From assembly GCA_003963305.1 (NCBI GenBank), contig RXJR01000023.1, forward strand, positions 124,001-188,000: a DNA stretch of 64,000 nt, given 5' to 3'. This document shows, piece by piece, positions 4,118 to 13,630 of the stretch. Under the pieces are notes generated by a model that was not told the origin of the DNA, ran no database searches, and saw only the letters and a program-made list of their open reading frames with translations. Each line of letters begins with the position of its first letter. The first letter of the stretch is position 1. The translations under genes were made by a program, and so were the position numbers. Source of the stretch: Candidatus Melainabacteria bacterium (GTDB lineage Bacteria; Cyanobacteriota; Vampirovibrionia; Obscuribacterales; Obscuribacteraceae).

Positions 4118-4567
4118 CTACTCTGTCACTTCATTCTTGACTACATAATCATCGTAATGACCGATTGGTTCAAAAGCACGTTGATACTTTTCAGGCATCA
4201 CCTTTTTAAGGTCTTCCCACTGGTACTTGTCCAGTTTTGAAAATCGAAGCATTTCGAATGCTTGTTTGGCAGATTCTTCGTTGTTCTGAGCAAACAACCC
4301 CTGTGCCACGCCTACTCTAGCAGCGAACGCATTGGGATATTTCTTAAAGACATCCCGGTAAATCGCCAATCCCTCGCTGAAATCGCCTTTGAGATATGCA
4401 CGTTCTGCCTTATAAACCTGTCTTCCGGCAATTAAATATGGAGGAGCGGAGATCAAAGACGCCAGAACAACGACACACACCACAGCACCAAAGACCTTTA
4501 TCAAAATTGGATACTGATGCGGGTTCAGGGGCGTGGCGTCATAACCAGCTGGAACACTTTGGCACAT
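4118..4567 (-). CDS. Membrane-anchored TPR protein
   Basis: 149 residues. One transmembrane helix lies at about 22-45, followed by a tetratricopeptide-like segment (AERAYLKGDFSEGLAIYRDV and its partner helix). The ATG at 4567 is preferred over an upstream TTG because GAGG lies 6 nt before it. It is probably a scaffold facing one side of the membrane. It sits 19 bp upstream of the HEIAH protease gene and may be its partner. No enzymatic domain. Confidence 0.6.
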   Translation of the reverse strand: MCQSVPAGYDATPLNPHQYPILIKVFGAVVCVVVLASLISAPPYLIAGRQVYKAERAYLKGDFSEGLAIYRDVFKKYPNAFAARVGVAQGLFAQNNEESAKQAFEMLRFSKLDKYQWEDLKKVMPEKYQRAFEPIGHYDDYVVKNEVTE

Positions 4568-4721
4568 ATCAACCTCGAACAAAAATGCCAGTAAGTTCGG
4601 ATACCAATGAATTCAACATTACACTAATCTGTGCAAAGTACAACCTTAAAACAGTGACTGCTTGAGTTCGTGTCAGGTCAGTAAACCGACTGACACTACA
4701 TGTGGTGCACGCAGTTTAGCG

Positions 4722-4830
<109 letters not shown>

Positions 4831-4964: not shown

Positions 4965-5196
4965 AAAAAAACAAAACAAAAACACCGTCCAGATTGCTCT
5001 CGGACGGTGTTTTCGCTACTGCCTGACTGCCCCTTGCGATATGGGCTCAGTATCTATGTATGCTTCAGTCAGTCCTTCACATACATCGGGCTACTTACTA
5101 ACGTTTCTGGTCAGCGCCGACCTGTCGTTTCCGTAAAGCCCCTCGGCTCAAAGCGCTTATCATTTAAGTAAGCCGCTCACCGTTGATGCCATTAGT
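4965..5196 (-). ncRNA. Putative structured ncRNA, copy 1 (new family?), ending in an intrinsic terminator
   Basis: This segment is closely similar to 9945-10165. Three helices are supported by compensatory changes between the copies. The first is 5056-5062 with 5080-5086, where T-A became C-G. The second is 5095-5098 with 5133-5136, where A-T became G-C. The third is 5153-5159 with 5169-5176, where C-G became T-A and T-A became C-G. GGTC/GACC at 5109-5122 forms an invariant hairpin. On the minus strand the element runs into a 12-bp stem (4979-4990 with 5002-5013) and a T-rich tract, so I place the gene on the minus strand. Ends are inferred. It matches none of the RNA families I can recognise by eye (tmRNA, RNase P, SRP). 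Confidence 0.6.
4979..5013 (-). terminator. Intrinsic terminator of ncRNA copy 1
   Basis: The 12-bp stem AAAACACCGTCC / GGACGGTGTTTT has an 11-nt loop. On the minus strand it is followed by a long T-rich tract (4962-4978). The plus-strand T run is only four bases, so the minus orientation is favoured. Confidence 0.8.
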
Positions 5197-5199
5197 GTA

Positions 5200-5232
5200 T
5201 CCGATCGCAAAATATATTCCAGTACCCCATTG
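5200..5232 (-). promoter_or_regulatory. Conserved promoter-like block of ncRNA copy 1 (sigma-54-like -24/-12 spacing)
   Basis: On the minus strand TGG (5221-5219) and TTGC (5210-5207) put GG and GC exactly 10 nt apart, the -24/-12 spacing of sigma-54 promoters. The preceding GGGGTA block is also conserved. The same arrangement occurs at copy 2 (10190 and 10177). Whether this organism has RpoN is not visible here, so the sigma assignment is speculative. Confidence 0.35.
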
Positions 5233-5239
5233 AGTATTT

Positions 5240-5610
5240 AACGTTTGCATCCTTGGCATCACCAAGAACCGCTTTCAATGACCGCATCAAATATCGAATT
5301 CGATTAACAAGCGCTTGATCAACTGAAAGGCGCATGGAAAGCGGCATCGCATATAGCATCGATATACGGACGCCAGAACTCAGAATGTTGGATAAGCGAC
5401 AAGTCGATCCATACGCATAGCGACCAGATAGCCTTTGCATGCTACTATCGCTGCCATCCCTTCGACGCCTTGGCGCGCAAGGGATTTCGCGACCCGAGCG
5501 AAGGACCCGTTGCCCAGAGCCTACGTCCGCCCGAGCGAGGACTCGACGCCCGATAGCCCCCACCGCCCCAACGCCAAAGACCCCTTCCTAAAAAAGAGGA
5601 TTCAGCTCCG
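5240..5610. other. Intergenic leader upstream of the FAD oxidase gene
   Basis: About 370 bases without a convincing gene. The first 100 bases still share patches with the corresponding flank of copy 2 (for example CAAGCGCTTGATCA against CAAGCGCTCGATCA). The remainder is GC-rich and ends in an AAAAAAGAGG ribosome-binding region before 5611. Confidence 0.5.
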
Positions 5611-7357: not shown

Positions 7358-9844
7358 GTGCGAATAAATTTCTCGAGAAAAACGTTTAGAGCGTTGTTTT
7401 GCCTTTTGTCTTGCGCGTCAATTCTGATGCAACAGAGTTACGCGGCTATATCGCCTCAACTGCGCGGAGCGGCGCCGCCTGAAGAAGCAGTGCAAATGGC
7501 GGAAATTCTGGGAATCAGATCTCAATTCGATCGGCTGCACGCTCTGTCGGCAACGGCCGATTCAGACGGGCAAGAAGCTCTGGCACTCAGAGGACAGATC
7601 CTGCAAAAGGTGCTGACTGGATTTTTAGAAGTTCGACGTGCCAGCGACAGAAATTTTCGAGAGCTGTCATACACATTCAACATAATGCGTCGTGAACAAC
7701 GAAAGCAAGACTTGATCAACCAGATGTTCACGTTCGCAAACTTTGCGCAGCTTGGAACTCTGTACACGATGGAACCATTTTTCCGTCTTCATACTCACTT
7801 CAAAACCTCAGCAATCTGCACCACAACCGGAGGGGGACTCGGACTCACGCTTCCCACTCTCAACATACTGCAGCAGAAAACGGCGCATATTAAACACATC
7901 GAGCCACCACCCGCGATGCGCAATGTAATCGAAGGGGGTCCTGTAGATGCAAGCGGTTTACCGCTATATGTCGATAGATTCCTTGACACACCGGTTCCAG
8001 GAAGCGCTCAGTCACGACGTTCCGAGATGTTTGCTCTCTGGAAGAAGCGCTACGGAGTCGACCCATCCAACAAGGCAACCTTGTGCAGCCTGCATAACGA
8101 GGGAAAACCTCAAAAGATGGGAATGCTGCGAACCCGAATCTTACTACTATTCTCATTGCAAACTTACGTCTTGCAAATGGACTCGGCACTACTGGCATTG
8201 CTGAAACAGATTGAGCCAGCTGGAGTTTACACTCCAGGCGGCGCCAACGACAGTTCCCAATTAACGGCACTTGGATTCAATGCCCGAGCCATCGAAGCAG
8301 CCAAACTGCTCGACATCCAGTCACCTGTTGCTCGACTCTGCACGATAAACAAGGGTGGTGCCGGGCTCGACAATCCAGAGAGACTTCGACTGGAATCTAC
8401 CGTATTGGAAAGACTGATTGCAGGCTCGCTTGAAGTGCGCGCAGCAACTGACGAAATCGACGCAGAGTTGAATTATGCTTCTGACGTAGTGCTTGCTGAA
8501 CTGCTGGCAAAACGTGGAAAAGCACTTCAATTGAATTACGAGATCAACTTTATCCAAGCCGGCACATTTGGTTCAACGGCCGGTCTTCTCTATCTGAACG
8601 GGTACACCAAAGCCGGAAACGACATGTTCGTCATTAGCGGCGGCATCGGTACCTGTCTTTCAACGATGGCCTTGCGCCTGATGCGTGGCGGTTCGAGAAA
8701 AATTGATACCGAACCAAACATGCTGGCAAATATTTTTGATTTCCGCCAACGGGGCGAATATACTTTCTCGCCCTTGATCACCGCTTATCTAAACTCACCT
8801 GACCCGACATCAAAAAACGGAAAATCTCGACGAGAAGAACTATTTCAATATTGGAAAGAGCACAAAATTACTTCTGTCGATCTTGGCAAGGAAAAGACCT
8901 TGAACAATCTTGCTGCCATGCCCGGCGCGAAACCGGACACAATCAAGATCGTCACCAATCGTATTGCCATGCTGCATGCAGTGGAATCAAAACTGGAGGC
9001 TTTCGACGGCATCCTGCTGGAACTTCTAAACGCAACACAGCCTTCCGCACCCCTGTCTGCGGATCAGTCAGTGGCAACCGTAACGCTCACTCCTGAAGCC
9101 AATGAAACGGCAAACCTGATCGGAGCACAATCACTGGTCAGCAAAGTAAGAGCCAATCCGAACAACCCGACCTACACATTGGCACTAGTGCGCACGGTGT
9201 TCGCAACGGCGCTCGATGTTCGCGCTACCGAAGATACTCTCGATGGCGAAATTTCTTACGAGTATGATGTGCTGAACCGCATGGTTAGAGCACGCGACAA
9301 GGTGGTCGCCATGACTAACAACGCAAACTTCTACCAGCTCAATATTCTGGCATTGATAATCGACGGTTTGCTCGGTCAAAGCCACAAGCCAAATAACGTC
9401 CGCGCCTCAAACATCCTGAACATCGTTTCAGGGCTTTCAGTTGGAACTTTAGCGGGGCTGACGCTAATCGAACAACACGGCGGTAGCCGACCTCTGCCAG
9501 CCAATCCAAACATGCTGGGACAAACTATCGGGGTCTCGCCGCCCGAAGATTACCGCTTCTCTCCGGTTATCTGGCAATACATTAACAACGTGCCGCCAGG
9601 CTCAAGCGACGGACAAACGCGCGTCGAGCGAATGAAACTAGCCTGGAAGCAAGCCAAGACAATCAATATCAACATGGACAAACAATCAAATCGTGAAAAG
9701 GTCGCGGCTTTCGGACCAGCGCACTCTCAGCACTCCGAATCAATCAAGTTGATTAAAAACCGGCTGAATATGCTCTACGACGTCGAAGGACTGGTTGGGC
9801 AATTCAACCGCGGACTAGATGAACTTATGCTTGCTGCGGGCTAA
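7358..9844 (+). CDS. Large secreted/membrane protein of three internal repeats, unknown function
   Basis: 828 residues. A signal peptide (about 1-30, ending near QQSYA) precedes three related modules of about 250 residues (about 45-290, 310-560, 575-828). Each module starts with a helical segment (L-E-V-R-A-x-D). It continues with a hydrophobic pair of segments around ISGGIGTCLSTMAL, then an RREELFQYWK-type motif and an NRI-x-ML-x-x-V-E end. I recognise no known domain. GTG start at 7358; no strong Shine-Dalgarno. It stands alone between two hairpin-bounded intergenic regions. The module architecture suggests a lineage-specific envelope protein. Confidence 0.75.
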   Translation: MRINFSRKTFRALFCLLSCASILMQQSYAAISPQLRGAAPPEEAVQMAEILGIRSQFDRLHALSATADSDGQEALALRGQILQKVLTGFLEVRRASDRNFRELSYTFNIMRREQRKQDLINQMFTFANFAQLGTLYTMEPFFRLHTHFKTSAICTTTGGGLGLTLPTLNILQQKTAHIKHIEPPPAMRNVIEGGPVDASGLPLYVDRFLDTPVPGSAQSRRSEMFALWKKRYGVDPSNKATLCSLHNEGKPQKMGMLRTRILLLFSLQTYVLQMDSALLALLKQIEPAGVYTPGGANDSSQLTALGFNARAIEAAKLLDIQSPVARLCTINKGGAGLDNPERLRLESTVLERLIAGSLEVRAATDEIDAELNYASDVVLAELLAKRGKALQLNYEINFIQAGTFGSTAGLLYLNGYTKAGNDMFVISGGIGTCLSTMALRLMRGGSRKIDTEPNMLANIFDFRQRGEYTFSPLITAYLNSPDPTSKNGKSRREELFQYWKEHKITSVDLGKEKTLNNLAAMPGAKPDTIKIVTNRIAMLHAVESKLEAFDGILLELLNATQPSAPLSADQSVATVTLTPEANETANLIGAQSLVSKVRANPNNPTYTLALVRTVFATALDVRATEDTLDGEISYEYDVLNRMVRARDKVVAMTNNANFYQLNILALIIDGLLGQSHKPNNVRASNILNIVSGLSVGTLAGLTLIEQHGGSRPLPANPNMLGQTIGVSPPEDYRFSPVIWQYINNVPPGSSDGQTRVERMKLAWKQAKTININMDKQSNREKVAAFGPAHSQHSESIKLIKNRLNMLYDVEGLVGQFNRGLDELMLAAG

Positions 9845-9944: not shown

Positions 9945-10165
9945 CACTAAAAGACCACCCAGATAAATCTGCGGTGGTCTTTTAGCTATTGCCTGACTGC
10001 CCCTTGCGATGTGGGCTCAATATCTATGCACGCTTCAGTCAGTCCTTCACATGCATCGGGCTACTTGCTAACGTTTCTGGTCAGCGCCGACCTGTCGTTT
10101 CCACAAAGCCCCTCGGCTCAAAGTGCGCATCATTTAAGTGAGCACTCACCGTTGATGTATTTAGT
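9945..10165 (-). ncRNA. Putative structured ncRNA, copy 2
   Basis: Second copy of the element at 4965-5196. The helix partners are 10026-10032 with 10050-10056, 10065-10068 with 10103-10106, and 10123-10129 with 10139-10145. Two plus-strand C/A mismatches (10031/10051 and 10068/10103) become G-U wobble pairs when read on the minus strand, which favours a minus-strand transcript. One 4-bp helix (around 5038-5054 in copy 1) would argue the other way. The terminator hairpin at 9947-9985 has a different sequence from copy 1 but the same relative position, as expected when structure is selected and sequence is not. Confidence 0.6.
9947..9985 (-). terminator. Bidirectional intrinsic terminator of ncRNA copy 2 and the upstream plus-strand gene
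   Basis: The perfect 13-bp stem CTAAAAGACCACC / GGTGGTCTTTTAG has a 13-nt loop, with four T in the stem in both directions. It can end both the plus-strand three-repeat gene and the minus-strand ncRNA. Confidence 0.75.
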
Positions 10166-10205
10166 TTATCCCACTGCAAAGAATATTCCACTACCCCATT
10201 TTGTT
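10166..10205 (-). promoter_or_regulatory. Conserved promoter-like block of ncRNA copy 2
   Basis: TGG (10190-10188) and GC (10177-10176) are again separated so that GG and GC stand 10 nt apart. The GGGGTA block is conserved just upstream. The spacing is identical to copy 1 although several intervening bases differ. Confidence 0.35.
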
Positions 10206-10209
10206 TTTA

Positions 10210-10647
10210 AGGATCGAATTTTCGGATCACGCAAAATGGCTGATGAACAGTCGATCCACGGATCGATTTTATTACCAAGCGCTCGATCATTTGCAGGCAT
10301 AAATAAAAGCAGACCGAGATATAGAAGAGATACACAAAAAGGAACCTCAAAATCTCGGCGTCAGACACTTTCGAGTTGTCATGCCTGCGACACAAGTAAT
10401 TTCGTATTGTTTTTGTGTGAGGCGCAGCGCACAAACCAGATAAGCCAAGCGCACAAGATTTTCAATTTTGAAGAAAGGGGCGGGTGCCATCAAGCGATTG
10501 ATGGCATTCTTCTTTTTCAGCTCGAACTCCCTGATAGCGGAAAGTTAGGAAATACAAACAGTTGCTCATCGGAGCTTAACCATGAAGCGGTTTCATACAA
10601 GAGAGAACATCTGTCCTCCGAACATTCATTCATTCAGGTGAAATCAT
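10210..10647. other. Intergenic stretch upstream of the small membrane protein and two-component genes
   Basis: About 440 bases. The part to 10300 shares patches with the flank of copy 1. GGATCGAATTTTCGGATC and nearby palindromes stand out. The hairpin-like segment CATCAAGCGATTGATG sits at about 10488-10503. No convincing gene. Confidence 0.4.
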
Positions 10648-10973: not shown

Positions 10974-11699
10974 ATGGTTGACTTCCCGTCTGGTCAAAGA
11001 AGCGAGCCGATGCAATTGCTTATCGTCGATGACGATATAAAATTCTGTCGTTTAATTTCTGAGTATCTATCGAAGCATGACTTTGTAGTTTCATTTGTGC
11101 ATGACGGCGCTAATGCGCTACAAACCGCAGCAGCCAAACCATGGGATGCCGTTATCCTCGACGTAATGCTGCCCGGAATGAGCGGTTACGACATTCTTCG
11201 CAAGCTACGTGAATTTTCCAATGTTCCGGTTTTGATGCTGACGGCGCTGAGTGACGAAACTGATCGCATTGTCGGTTTGGAAATTGGCGCAGATGATTAT
11301 CTCCCAAAGAGTTTTTCGCCGCGAGAGCTTCTGGCGCGACTGAGAGCGGTTCTGCGTCGCACTGCGAGAACGCAAAGTTCATCAACAAATGAGATCGTCG
11401 TTGGTTGCATTCAGATCGATTTGCTAACCCGACGCGTGACAGTGGAGAATACTCCGGTAACTCTTACAGCGGTCGAATACGATCTGTTATTGGCACTCGC
11501 TCAAACTCCACATCGCATCAGATCTCGGGAGCAAATTCTGAATGATATTCGCGATCGCACGTACGACATCACCGACCGTTCGATCGACGTACACATTTCA
11601 TCGCTGAGAAAAAAAATGGGGGACGACGCAAAAAACCCTCGTTTCATCAGAACGATTCGTTCTGCGGGATACATGCTTGTTGATTCATCCAGGGGTTGA
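10974..11699 (+). CDS. OmpR/CpxR-family response regulator
   Basis: 241 residues. The receiver domain (about 13-125) has an acidic pocket in LLIVDDD, a phospho-acceptor Asp in VILDVMLPGMSG and a switch Lys in DDYLPK. The winged-helix DNA-binding domain lies at about 140-238 (DRSIDVHISSLRKKMG). The start could be this ATG or the internal one at MQLLIVDDD. It overlaps or abuts the sensor kinase gene, forming a two-gene operon. A palindrome and direct repeats upstream suggest autocontrol. Confidence 0.9.
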   Translation: MVDFPSGQRSEPMQLLIVDDDIKFCRLISEYLSKHDFVVSFVHDGANALQTAAAKPWDAVILDVMLPGMSGYDILRKLREFSNVPVLMLTALSDETDRIVGLEIGADDYLPKSFSPRELLARLRAVLRRTARTQSSSTNEIVVGCIQIDLLTRRVTVENTPVTLTAVEYDLLLALAQTPHRIRSREQILNDIRDRTYDITDRSIDVHISSLRKKMGDDAKNPRFIRTIRSAGYMLVDSSRG

Positions 11700-11701
11700 G
11701 C

Positions 11702-13630
11702 TTGAAAGTTGCTCACTCACTCTACATGCAAACTCTCAGCATGGTGCTTTTGTATTTAATTGCGCTAAACGCAATAGTTTTCATCTGCTTCAATGCGCAA
11801 TTTGGAATCGGCTGGGAAGCAATGCTGAAGAGCCCGGCTGGCGATCGAATTGACACAATTGCCGATGCGATAAGCAGCCAGCTTCAATCATCAGACAAGA
11901 AACACTGGACAGCAGTTTTACAGAATTTCGACAAGTTATACAACGCACAATTCTATGTGTTCAACGTTCATGGCGAACAGCTAGCCGGTAAGCCTTTAAC
12001 ACTGCCTAAAGCGTTAAAGGACAAAGTAAACGAGTTTCCTCTGGGTCTGCCGCCCAATATGGCAGGACCGCACGGCAATCATATGTTCGGATTCAGGACT
12101 CCAGTGGTCCATGATGAACACGGATGGCATCCTGAACAGGGCTTCGGGCCCATGCCGCAGGGTGGACAGAACATGCCCCCGCCGGAGAGTGGCGGACCAG
12201 GCGGACCAAGCGGACCTGGACCTGGCTTCCACGGTGGACCCGGCGGACCCGGACCTGAACCTGGCTTCCACGGTGGACCCAGCGGACCCGGACCTGAGCC
12301 TGGCTTCCACGGTGGACCGGGCGGACCCGGACCTGAACCTGGCTTCCACGGTGGACCCGGCGGGCCCGGACCTGAACCTGGCTTCCACGATGGACCCGGC
12401 GGACCCGGACCTGGATCCGGCTTCCACGATGGACCCGGCGGACCCGGACCTGAACCTGGCTTCCACGGTGGACCCGGCGAACCTCCAAACGATTTCCAGC
12501 AGGCTGGCATGGACGGAAACTTCCATAACGGCTCTCTCGGCAATGGCGATTTGCCTCGGTTCGTGCATGAATTTCGTCCGCCCCCGTTCATGCATGCGCA
12601 AGGTCGTTTTATCGTTCACACAGAGAATCCGGATACCTTTTTCATTGGGACTAAAATCATGCTGTTCGATACCGAACGCATGCATCCCGAACCATCTTAC
12701 GTTCTCGCCTCGACCAGTAATATCTGGCAAAGCACACTACTCTTCGATTTCAAATTTCTGCTCCTGGTCGGCGGATTGATCCTGCTTTTGTCACTACTAT
12801 TCTGGTGGCCGTTTGTCCATCAAATCGCTCGTTCAATAGGCGAACTAACAGCCGTCACAGAGAAAATTGCAGACGGAAAATTTGATGCACGTATTATTCG
12901 AGCACGTCAAGACGAGATAGGGAGGCTCGGCGACGCAGTCAACACTATGGCCGAAAAGCTCAACGAATATGTGCTCACTCAAAAACGCTTTCTTGCCGAT
13001 GTTTCGCACGAACTGTTCTCGCCACTCGCTCGATTACACATGGCAATAGAGCTTCTCGAAGATTGCAAACCGGAAGACTCATCTCGTCACTTCAAAGAAA
13101 TCAATGAAGAAATCGATGAAATGAAAAGTCTCATCACTGAGTTACTTGCCTACTCGAAAGCAGGTCTGATTCAGTCAGAGCGTCAGCTCGTCGCGATTGA
13201 TTTAAAACCGATTTTCGATGACCTAGTTGCAAAATTCAACGACCAGATGGAAATCAAAGTAGAACTTGATCAAACATCGACAGTCGAAGGCGACGAAACC
13301 TTGCTTTCGCGCTCGTTTTCAAACATCATCAGAAACAGCATTCGATACGCAGGCGAAGCTGGACCTTTAACGATTCAGTCAAAACACGATGGACCCGATT
13401 TATTTGTTTCATTTTCAGACTGCGGACCCGGTGTTCCAGAGGAAACTTTGAAATATCTGGGACAGCCATTCTTCCGCCCTGAGTTCTCGCGCAATCGTAA
13501 TCTCGGAGGCTTCGGCTTAGGTCTGGCAATTGTCAAAAGCTGCATCGAAGCTTGCAATGGCTCCGTCACATTGTCGAACCTACCTGCAGGCGGGCTCAAT
13601 GTTCAGATCAGACTCAAGTCCGTCCATTAG
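11702..13630 (+). CDS. CpxA-like sensor histidine kinase with histidine-bearing collagen-like sensor region
   Basis: About 642 residues. An N-terminal transmembrane helix precedes a periplasmic region of about 330 residues that contains seven 13-residue Gly/Pro-rich units, each with a GFH triplet. A second membrane helix follows (about 345-365), then HAMP, HisKA (DVSHELFSPLARL) and HATPase_c (NSIRYA, DCGPGVPE, GFGLGLAIVK). A TTG at 11702 with AGGGG 6 nt upstream is the likely start; another TTG lies at 11696 overlapping the regulator's stop. The regularly spaced histidines could bind metal ions, which is an inference. It is the partner of the preceding regulator. Confidence 0.88.
   Translation: MKVAHSLYMQTLSMVLLYLIALNAIVFICFNAQFGIGWEAMLKSPAGDRIDTIADAISSQLQSSDKKHWTAVLQNFDKLYNAQFYVFNVHGEQLAGKPLTLPKALKDKVNEFPLGLPPNMAGPHGNHMFGFRTPVVHDEHGWHPEQGFGPMPQGGQNMPPPESGGPGGPSGPGPGFHGGPGGPGPEPGFHGGPSGPGPEPGFHGGPGGPGPEPGFHGGPGGPGPEPGFHDGPGGPGPGSGFHDGPGGPGPEPGFHGGPGEPPNDFQQAGMDGNFHNGSLGNGDLPRFVHEFRPPPFMHAQGRFIVHTENPDTFFIGTKIMLFDTERMHPEPSYVLASTSNIWQSTLLFDFKFLLLVGGLILLLSLLFWWPFVHQIARSIGELTAVTEKIADGKFDARIIRARQDEIGRLGDAVNTMAEKLNEYVLTQKRFLADVSHELFSPLARLHMAIELLEDCKPEDSSRHFKEINEEIDEMKSLITELLAYSKAGLIQSERQLVAIDLKPIFDDLVAKFNDQMEIKVELDQTSTVEGDETLLSRSFSNIIRNSIRYAGEAGPLTIQSKHDGPDLFVSFSDCGPGVPEETLKYLGQPFFRPEFSRNRNLGGFGLGLAIVKSCIEACNGSVTLSNLPAGGLNVQIRLKSVH
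12185..12480 (+). repeat. 39-bp coding minisatellite, 7 units, in the sensor kinase
   Basis: Units like GGACCCGGACCTGAACCTGG plus GCTTCCACGGTGGACCCGG repeat with few substitutions and encode the 13-residue GPGPEPGFHGGPG motif. Strong identity between units implies recent expansion or homogenisation, so copy number may vary between strains. Confidence 0.92.

Follow-up and report, generated by a model that had tools for sequence, protein, structure and literature searches.

Two complete poplar-1 RNA genes from an Obscuribacterales genome: predicted transcription unit, covarying structure and order-level distribution

The stretch of DNA analysed here (64,000 nucleotides of contig RXJR01000023.1 from a Candidatus Melainabacteria bacterium; hereafter, the window) carries two intergenic copies of a structured RNA gene about 5 kb apart. 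In a self-comparison of the window, 4976–5241 aligned with 9946–10210 over 266 columns at 84.6% identity. The original prediction, made from the letters of the sequence, had located both copies correctly but gave the similarity as about 170 bases; the homology is longer because the promoter region is common to both copies. The description as a duplicated RNA gene likewise holds but is an understatement, as the source genome has five copies and relatives have up to 14. The protein of 828 amino acids encoded between the two copies (7358–9844) had no match in Pfam. At the edge of the window, an open reading frame (3–1778) that runs off the sequence, and which by eye resembles the large chain of ribonucleotide reductase, is overlapped at its 5′ end by a cobalamin riboswitch on the minus strand (RF01482, 61.2 bits; 1729–1886). 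Two tandem repeats also occur in the window: a tetranucleotide array (AGTA, ~22 copies; 4727–4816) directly past the terminator of copy 1, which degenerates into related 4-mers up to ~4900, and a 39-bp repeat (7.4 copies; 12194–12483) inside a sensor kinase gene (11696–13630), where it encodes a Gly/Pro-rich stretch.

Both copies matched the Rfam family RF03041 (poplar-1) over model positions 1–141 of 141 using cmscan (copy 1, 5012–5152, 137.7 bits; copy 2, 9982–10122, 137.5 bits; gathering cut-off, 110.5 bits), and no other Rfam family had a meaningful match to either copy at E-values up to 10. On the strength of these matches, the two copies are almost certainly complete poplar-1 genes on the minus strand, and nothing in the sequences speaks against their membership of the family. 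The original prediction had recognised no known family and had proposed an Rfam search; that search places the RNA in a family that is already catalogued and so not new, for which no paper on function was found in the literature searched. The strand implied by the original prediction was also the wrong one. The RNA is assigned to the minus strand because three features agree: the terminal hairpin, when the minus strand is read, leads into a U-tract (~4970–4982 in copy 1), a promoter-like element lies opposite the terminator end (5194–5241 in copy 1), and cells of paired columns in the family alignment, read on the minus strand, contain an excess of G-U over A-C (136 vs 32). Folding energy alone did not discriminate between the strands (z, −4.7 vs −4.1).

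From 5′ to 3′, the poplar-1 gene is composed of a promoter, the hairpin P0, a linker, P1 and P1b, an internal loop, P2, P3, P4a and P4b, and a terminator. P0 (minus strand, 5152–5177 in copy 1 and, from pair counts across homologues, 10122–10146 in copy 2) lies within and beyond a conserved GGTGAG and falls outside the Rfam model. It is separated from P1 by an unpaired and highly conserved linker, GAGCCGAGG. The internal loop that follows P1/P1b is 10 by 10, with GAAAC on both strands, P2 is a hairpin, and P3 is a hairpin with a long loop that pairs with a strand 3′ of P4b to form a pseudoknot. The 5′ and 3′ strands of this pseudoknot, which had been anticipated, occur on the minus strand at 5067–5072 (CUGACU, in the P3 loop) and 5023–5028 (AGUCAG) in copy 1, the register adopted here, and at 10037–10042 and 9993–9998 in copy 2, where pair counts across homologues identify them. 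A base-by-base check of the compensatory differences between the two copies confirmed 5059:5083 (T-A to C-G), 5097:5134 (A-T to G-C) and 5158:5170 (T-A to C-G) as first described; the change at 5154:5175 (C-G to T-A) is real but needs a 1-base indel, with 10124:10144, not 10145, as the partner pair. A second paralogue group (L207, L220, L221, L224, L233 and L240) has a P3 loop without its GAAGGA part, yet still forms the pseudoknot, there from strands of very different sequence.

Across 50 diverse homologues, standard pairs occupied 94.4% of the cells at 43 structural pairs, compared to 30–40% for all of the slid controls, and double changes were found at 35 of the 43. Every consensus helix was paired in 89–99.6% of cells with compensatory changes present. 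Against a phylogeny-aware null simulated on the tree, and with testing restricted to the structure proposed beforehand (the Rfam helices and the pseudoknot of the original prediction), covariation was significant at 28/43 pairs, distributed over all eight helices. A strict test of all possible pairs returned 4–5 individually significant pairs and none outside the proposed structure. Both elements that are absent from the nested Rfam consensus line were covered by this signal: P0 had double changes at 7/8 pairs (six of the eight significant) and the pseudoknot was paired in 96.3% of cells, with double changes at 5/6 pairs (three of the six significant). At the level of sequence, the structural signal of the two copies exceeds chance, and the claim of selection on RNA structure is supported; independent variation at paired positions, the pattern that would have spoken against it, was not seen among the 50 homologues.

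An intrinsic terminator (stem-loop and T-run) was present on the RNA strand of all 103 collected copies. In the window it occupies 4970–5013 (copy 1) and 9945–9983 (copy 2) on the minus strand, and the terminal hairpins that had been thought unrelated in sequence are variants of this single family-wide element. At the other end of the gene, 72 non-redundant copies aligned on their G-run share a motif consisting of TTAAATG, variable bases, TGGGGTA[C/G]TT and a −10 box (TAAACT/TATACT); in 69/72 the first G and this box are spaced 29 or 30 nt apart. By this motif and, for copy 1, its fixed spacing, the putative promoters in the window are at 5194–5241 for copy 1 (minus strand; TTAAATA, 5235–5241; GGGGTACT, 5221–5228; −10 box TACACT, 5194–5199), with a predicted transcription start near 5187, and at 10163–10210 for copy 2 (minus strand; TTAAAAA, 10204–10210; GGGGTAGT, 10190–10197; −10 box TAAACT, 10163–10168). 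A strict form, TTAAATG-N6-GGGGTA[C/G]T, occurred 59 times in the 53 Obscuribacterales genomes and its reversed control did not occur in the same genomes. By coordinates, and among the matches listed, 54 of the 59 sites are directly upstream of poplar-1, and the remaining five are at contig ends, where two visibly enter poplar-1 sequence and three end too early. The strict promoter is apparently exclusive to poplar-1 genes, or to contig ends truncating one. A looser pattern recovered the five poplar-1 promoters of the source genome and four sites without the spacing. A scan for consensus sigma-70 promoters found none, because the −35 region is unlike TTGACA; the lack of a −35 hexamer of this type hints at control by an activator or by a sigma factor of an unusual kind.

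Together, P0, the pseudoknotted core and the terminator constitute a predicted transcript of ~215–225 nt, and its free-standing transcription is suggested by the terminator in 103/103 copies and by a dedicated promoter motif with fixed −10 spacing. The Rfam model has the same strand sense and identical nested helices, whereas its 141 nt are without the 5′ hairpin, promoter and terminator and its printed nested line is without the pseudoknot; the ~215–225-nt unit, with its covarying 5′ hairpin, pseudoknot, terminator and promoter, is what the present analysis adds to that model.

Within the Obscuribacterales, poplar-1 occurred in 47/53 genomes and 22/25 genera, with 1–14 copies in each carrier. 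The fifth copy of the source genome falls across an assembly break, with one part on contig 9 and the other on contig 41; these contigs have exactly 57 bases in common where they overlap. Of 386 genomes sampled from the phylum as a whole, the source genome alone was positive (0/385 for the others). Plasmid and phage collections, and 38 viral contigs that contain the 16-mer used as a query, had no poplar-1, and an origin as a mobile element, phage or plasmid was rejected. The collection scan with this 16-mer, a query too short for the purpose, returned mostly chance matches in unrelated bacteria, and profile matches among its records were limited to the cyanobacterial lineage and one metagenome-assembled genome (MAG) labelled ‘Actinobacteria bacterium’. 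This MAG (L062, L067) has full-length poplar-1, and its record name is probably wrong, as its coordinates resemble those of an Obscuribacterales genome (G005).

At one locus, shared by 13 genomes, poplar-1 precedes a (peptidase M16)-dut-dapB-asd-dapA-RNase J operon that is encoded in the same direction, at a distance that ranges from overlapping the first listed operon gene to ~630 nt or more. These dap-operon copies belong largely to one clade and the other copies group with those of their own genus or genome; the dap-operon copy appears to be ancestral and kept in many genera, with the others as putative lineage-specific duplications. A tRNA gene is divergent beside the ancestral copy (L206, 7461–7533; L236, 7190–7262). 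In the source genome the dap operon has no adjoining poplar-1. The neighbouring genes and their orientation vary from copy to copy. The unit of duplication is a discrete block of ~270–385 bp that includes its own control region, mostly ~350–385 bp inside clusters, where it extends from promoter to terminator with some additional upstream sequence. Between two relatives of the same genus, flanking genes are ~66–79% identical and poplar-1 units ~91%, so that the copies may have been made recently, or homogenised, or may simply be more constrained. In some clusters (L203, L204, L237), directly oriented copies are separated from one another by single unrelated genes (a PALP enzyme, an EamA transporter, TPR, DUF1254 and reverse transcriptase), and the genes between clustered copies share no common function. 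At the same site of a sister genome (L201), two copies lie side by side without intervening genes. Such sites are possibly a recombination hot spot. Sensor kinase genes, a recurring cluster of neighbours (21/60 loci), were set aside as background; they were commoner in control regions (10/20) than at poplar-1 loci (23/60).

These observations favour poplar-1 as a dedicated, regulated and trans-acting small RNA, a reading that we consider probable while leaving its mode partly open. Action in trans is the firmer part and is quite likely, because neighbouring genes and their orientation differ between copies. Against a small RNA of this kind counts the apparent lack of its two most familiar partners in the source genome: Hfq (PF17209) had no Pfam match, and CsrA/RsmA (PF02599) had none in a search that recovered its positive controls. 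The negative sigma-70 scan and the chance-level number of perfect antisense sites to the linker also count against it, the latter weakly. Cyanobacterial Hfq is divergent in sequence.

Three known systems offer points of comparison. The Yfr2 RNAs of photosynthetic cyanobacteria are multicopy within a genome, with loci that are not conserved and with their own promoters, are ~80–95 nt long and carry a repeat in a hairpin loop (PMC1242208, PMC2662882, PMC6778093), the family being defined by a GGAAACA repeat in its 5′ hairpin loop (PMC1242208). Poplar-1 is likewise multicopy, at non-syntenic loci, with its own promoters and a repeated, unpaired GGAAAC-type motif, but it is ~220 nt long and pseudoknotted and presents GAAAC twice, once in each strand of an internal loop and not in the 5′ hairpin loop. 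No Yfr family gave a covariance-model match at E-values up to 10 in a library that may not include a Yfr2 model. With the motif in a different structural place and no match, membership of Yfr2 was rejected, and the likeness is limited to how the two may work. The CsrB/RsmY RNAs resemble poplar-1 in their several unpaired GGA motifs and multicopy regulated genes, but the source genome is without CsrA/RsmA by Pfam, and titration of CsrA was ruled out there, as PF02599 is missing. Although 6S RNA (RF00013) is in the same size class and is an independent transcript, poplar-1 is multicopy with a different fold, and its copies did not match RF00013; a 6S candidate at a separate locus of the genome (G000:C33:101302–101518, L255; 40 bits, slightly short of the Rfam threshold) further excludes poplar-1 as a 6S replacement.

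As a dedicated small RNA, poplar-1 would be switched on at all copies together by a dedicated activator, or else a sigma factor, recognising TTAAATG-N6-GGGGTA. The pseudoknotted core would hold out the unpaired linker and the pseudo-symmetric internal loop, both strands of which carry GAAAC. These exposed, conserved elements would most likely bind a protein, which the RNA may then titrate or guide at a dose set by copy number. Protein binding is put forward tentatively, at somewhat under even chances. The weak preference for it over long antisense pairing derives from the conserved structure and internal loops, the lack of Pfam-detectable Hfq and antisense sites at chance level.

Antisense pairing is the next most likely mode, in which the unpaired segments would pair with many mRNAs, as in the multicopy Qrr or Yfr2-type RNAs. 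The high conservation of the unpaired linker and the variable loops of the paralogous copies are both common signs of such families, yet Hfq was not detected by Pfam and perfect 11-nt antisense sites to the linker, outside the copies, numbered one, which is not above chance and speaks weakly against long pairing; we regard this reading as possible but rather unlikely. A cis-acting leader (riboswitch or attenuator) is improbable. A structured RNA with a terminator before an operon has that form, and 13 genomes, largely of one clade, have a same-strand copy before the dap operon, but a position before genes of one pathway is consistent for this ancestral copy only. Most copies elsewhere precede unrelated or oppositely oriented genes. 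In the window, copy 1 has its closest downstream neighbour on the same strand (4118–4582) ~400 bp away, past the tetranucleotide array, and copy 2 is followed by a gene on the opposite strand (7358–9844), while the source genome retains dapB with no adjoining poplar-1. Least probable of all is a selfish or recombination-driven repeat (a cassette boundary) whose RNA has no cellular role, for although one cluster (G002 C7) packs five copies into ~4 kb, this cluster and those of G015 have single unrelated genes between direct copies, and many contigs end in a copy, no transposase is recurrently linked among the neighbours, compensatory changes keep the structure in paralogues, one locus is retained orthologously over many genera, and poplar-1 was absent from the sets of phages, plasmids and viral contigs that were scanned.

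To our knowledge, little has been established on the regulatory RNAs of these mostly uncultured cyanobacterial relatives. Its boundaries, pseudoknot, apparently exclusive promoter and ancestral locus turn poplar-1 into a testable system: the analysis defines the strand, size and start to seek in transcriptomes, the DNA with which to bait a regulator, and the genera to compare. It is conceivable, though somewhat doubtful, that poplar-1 is the output of an order-specific circuit in which one transcription factor or sigma factor, targeting only poplar-1, drives its 1–14 copies, and the pseudoknotted RNA in turn controls a global process via a protein. Were that so, the circuit would parallel the Yfr2 network of cyanobacteria in non-photosynthetic bacteria, having arisen independently of it.
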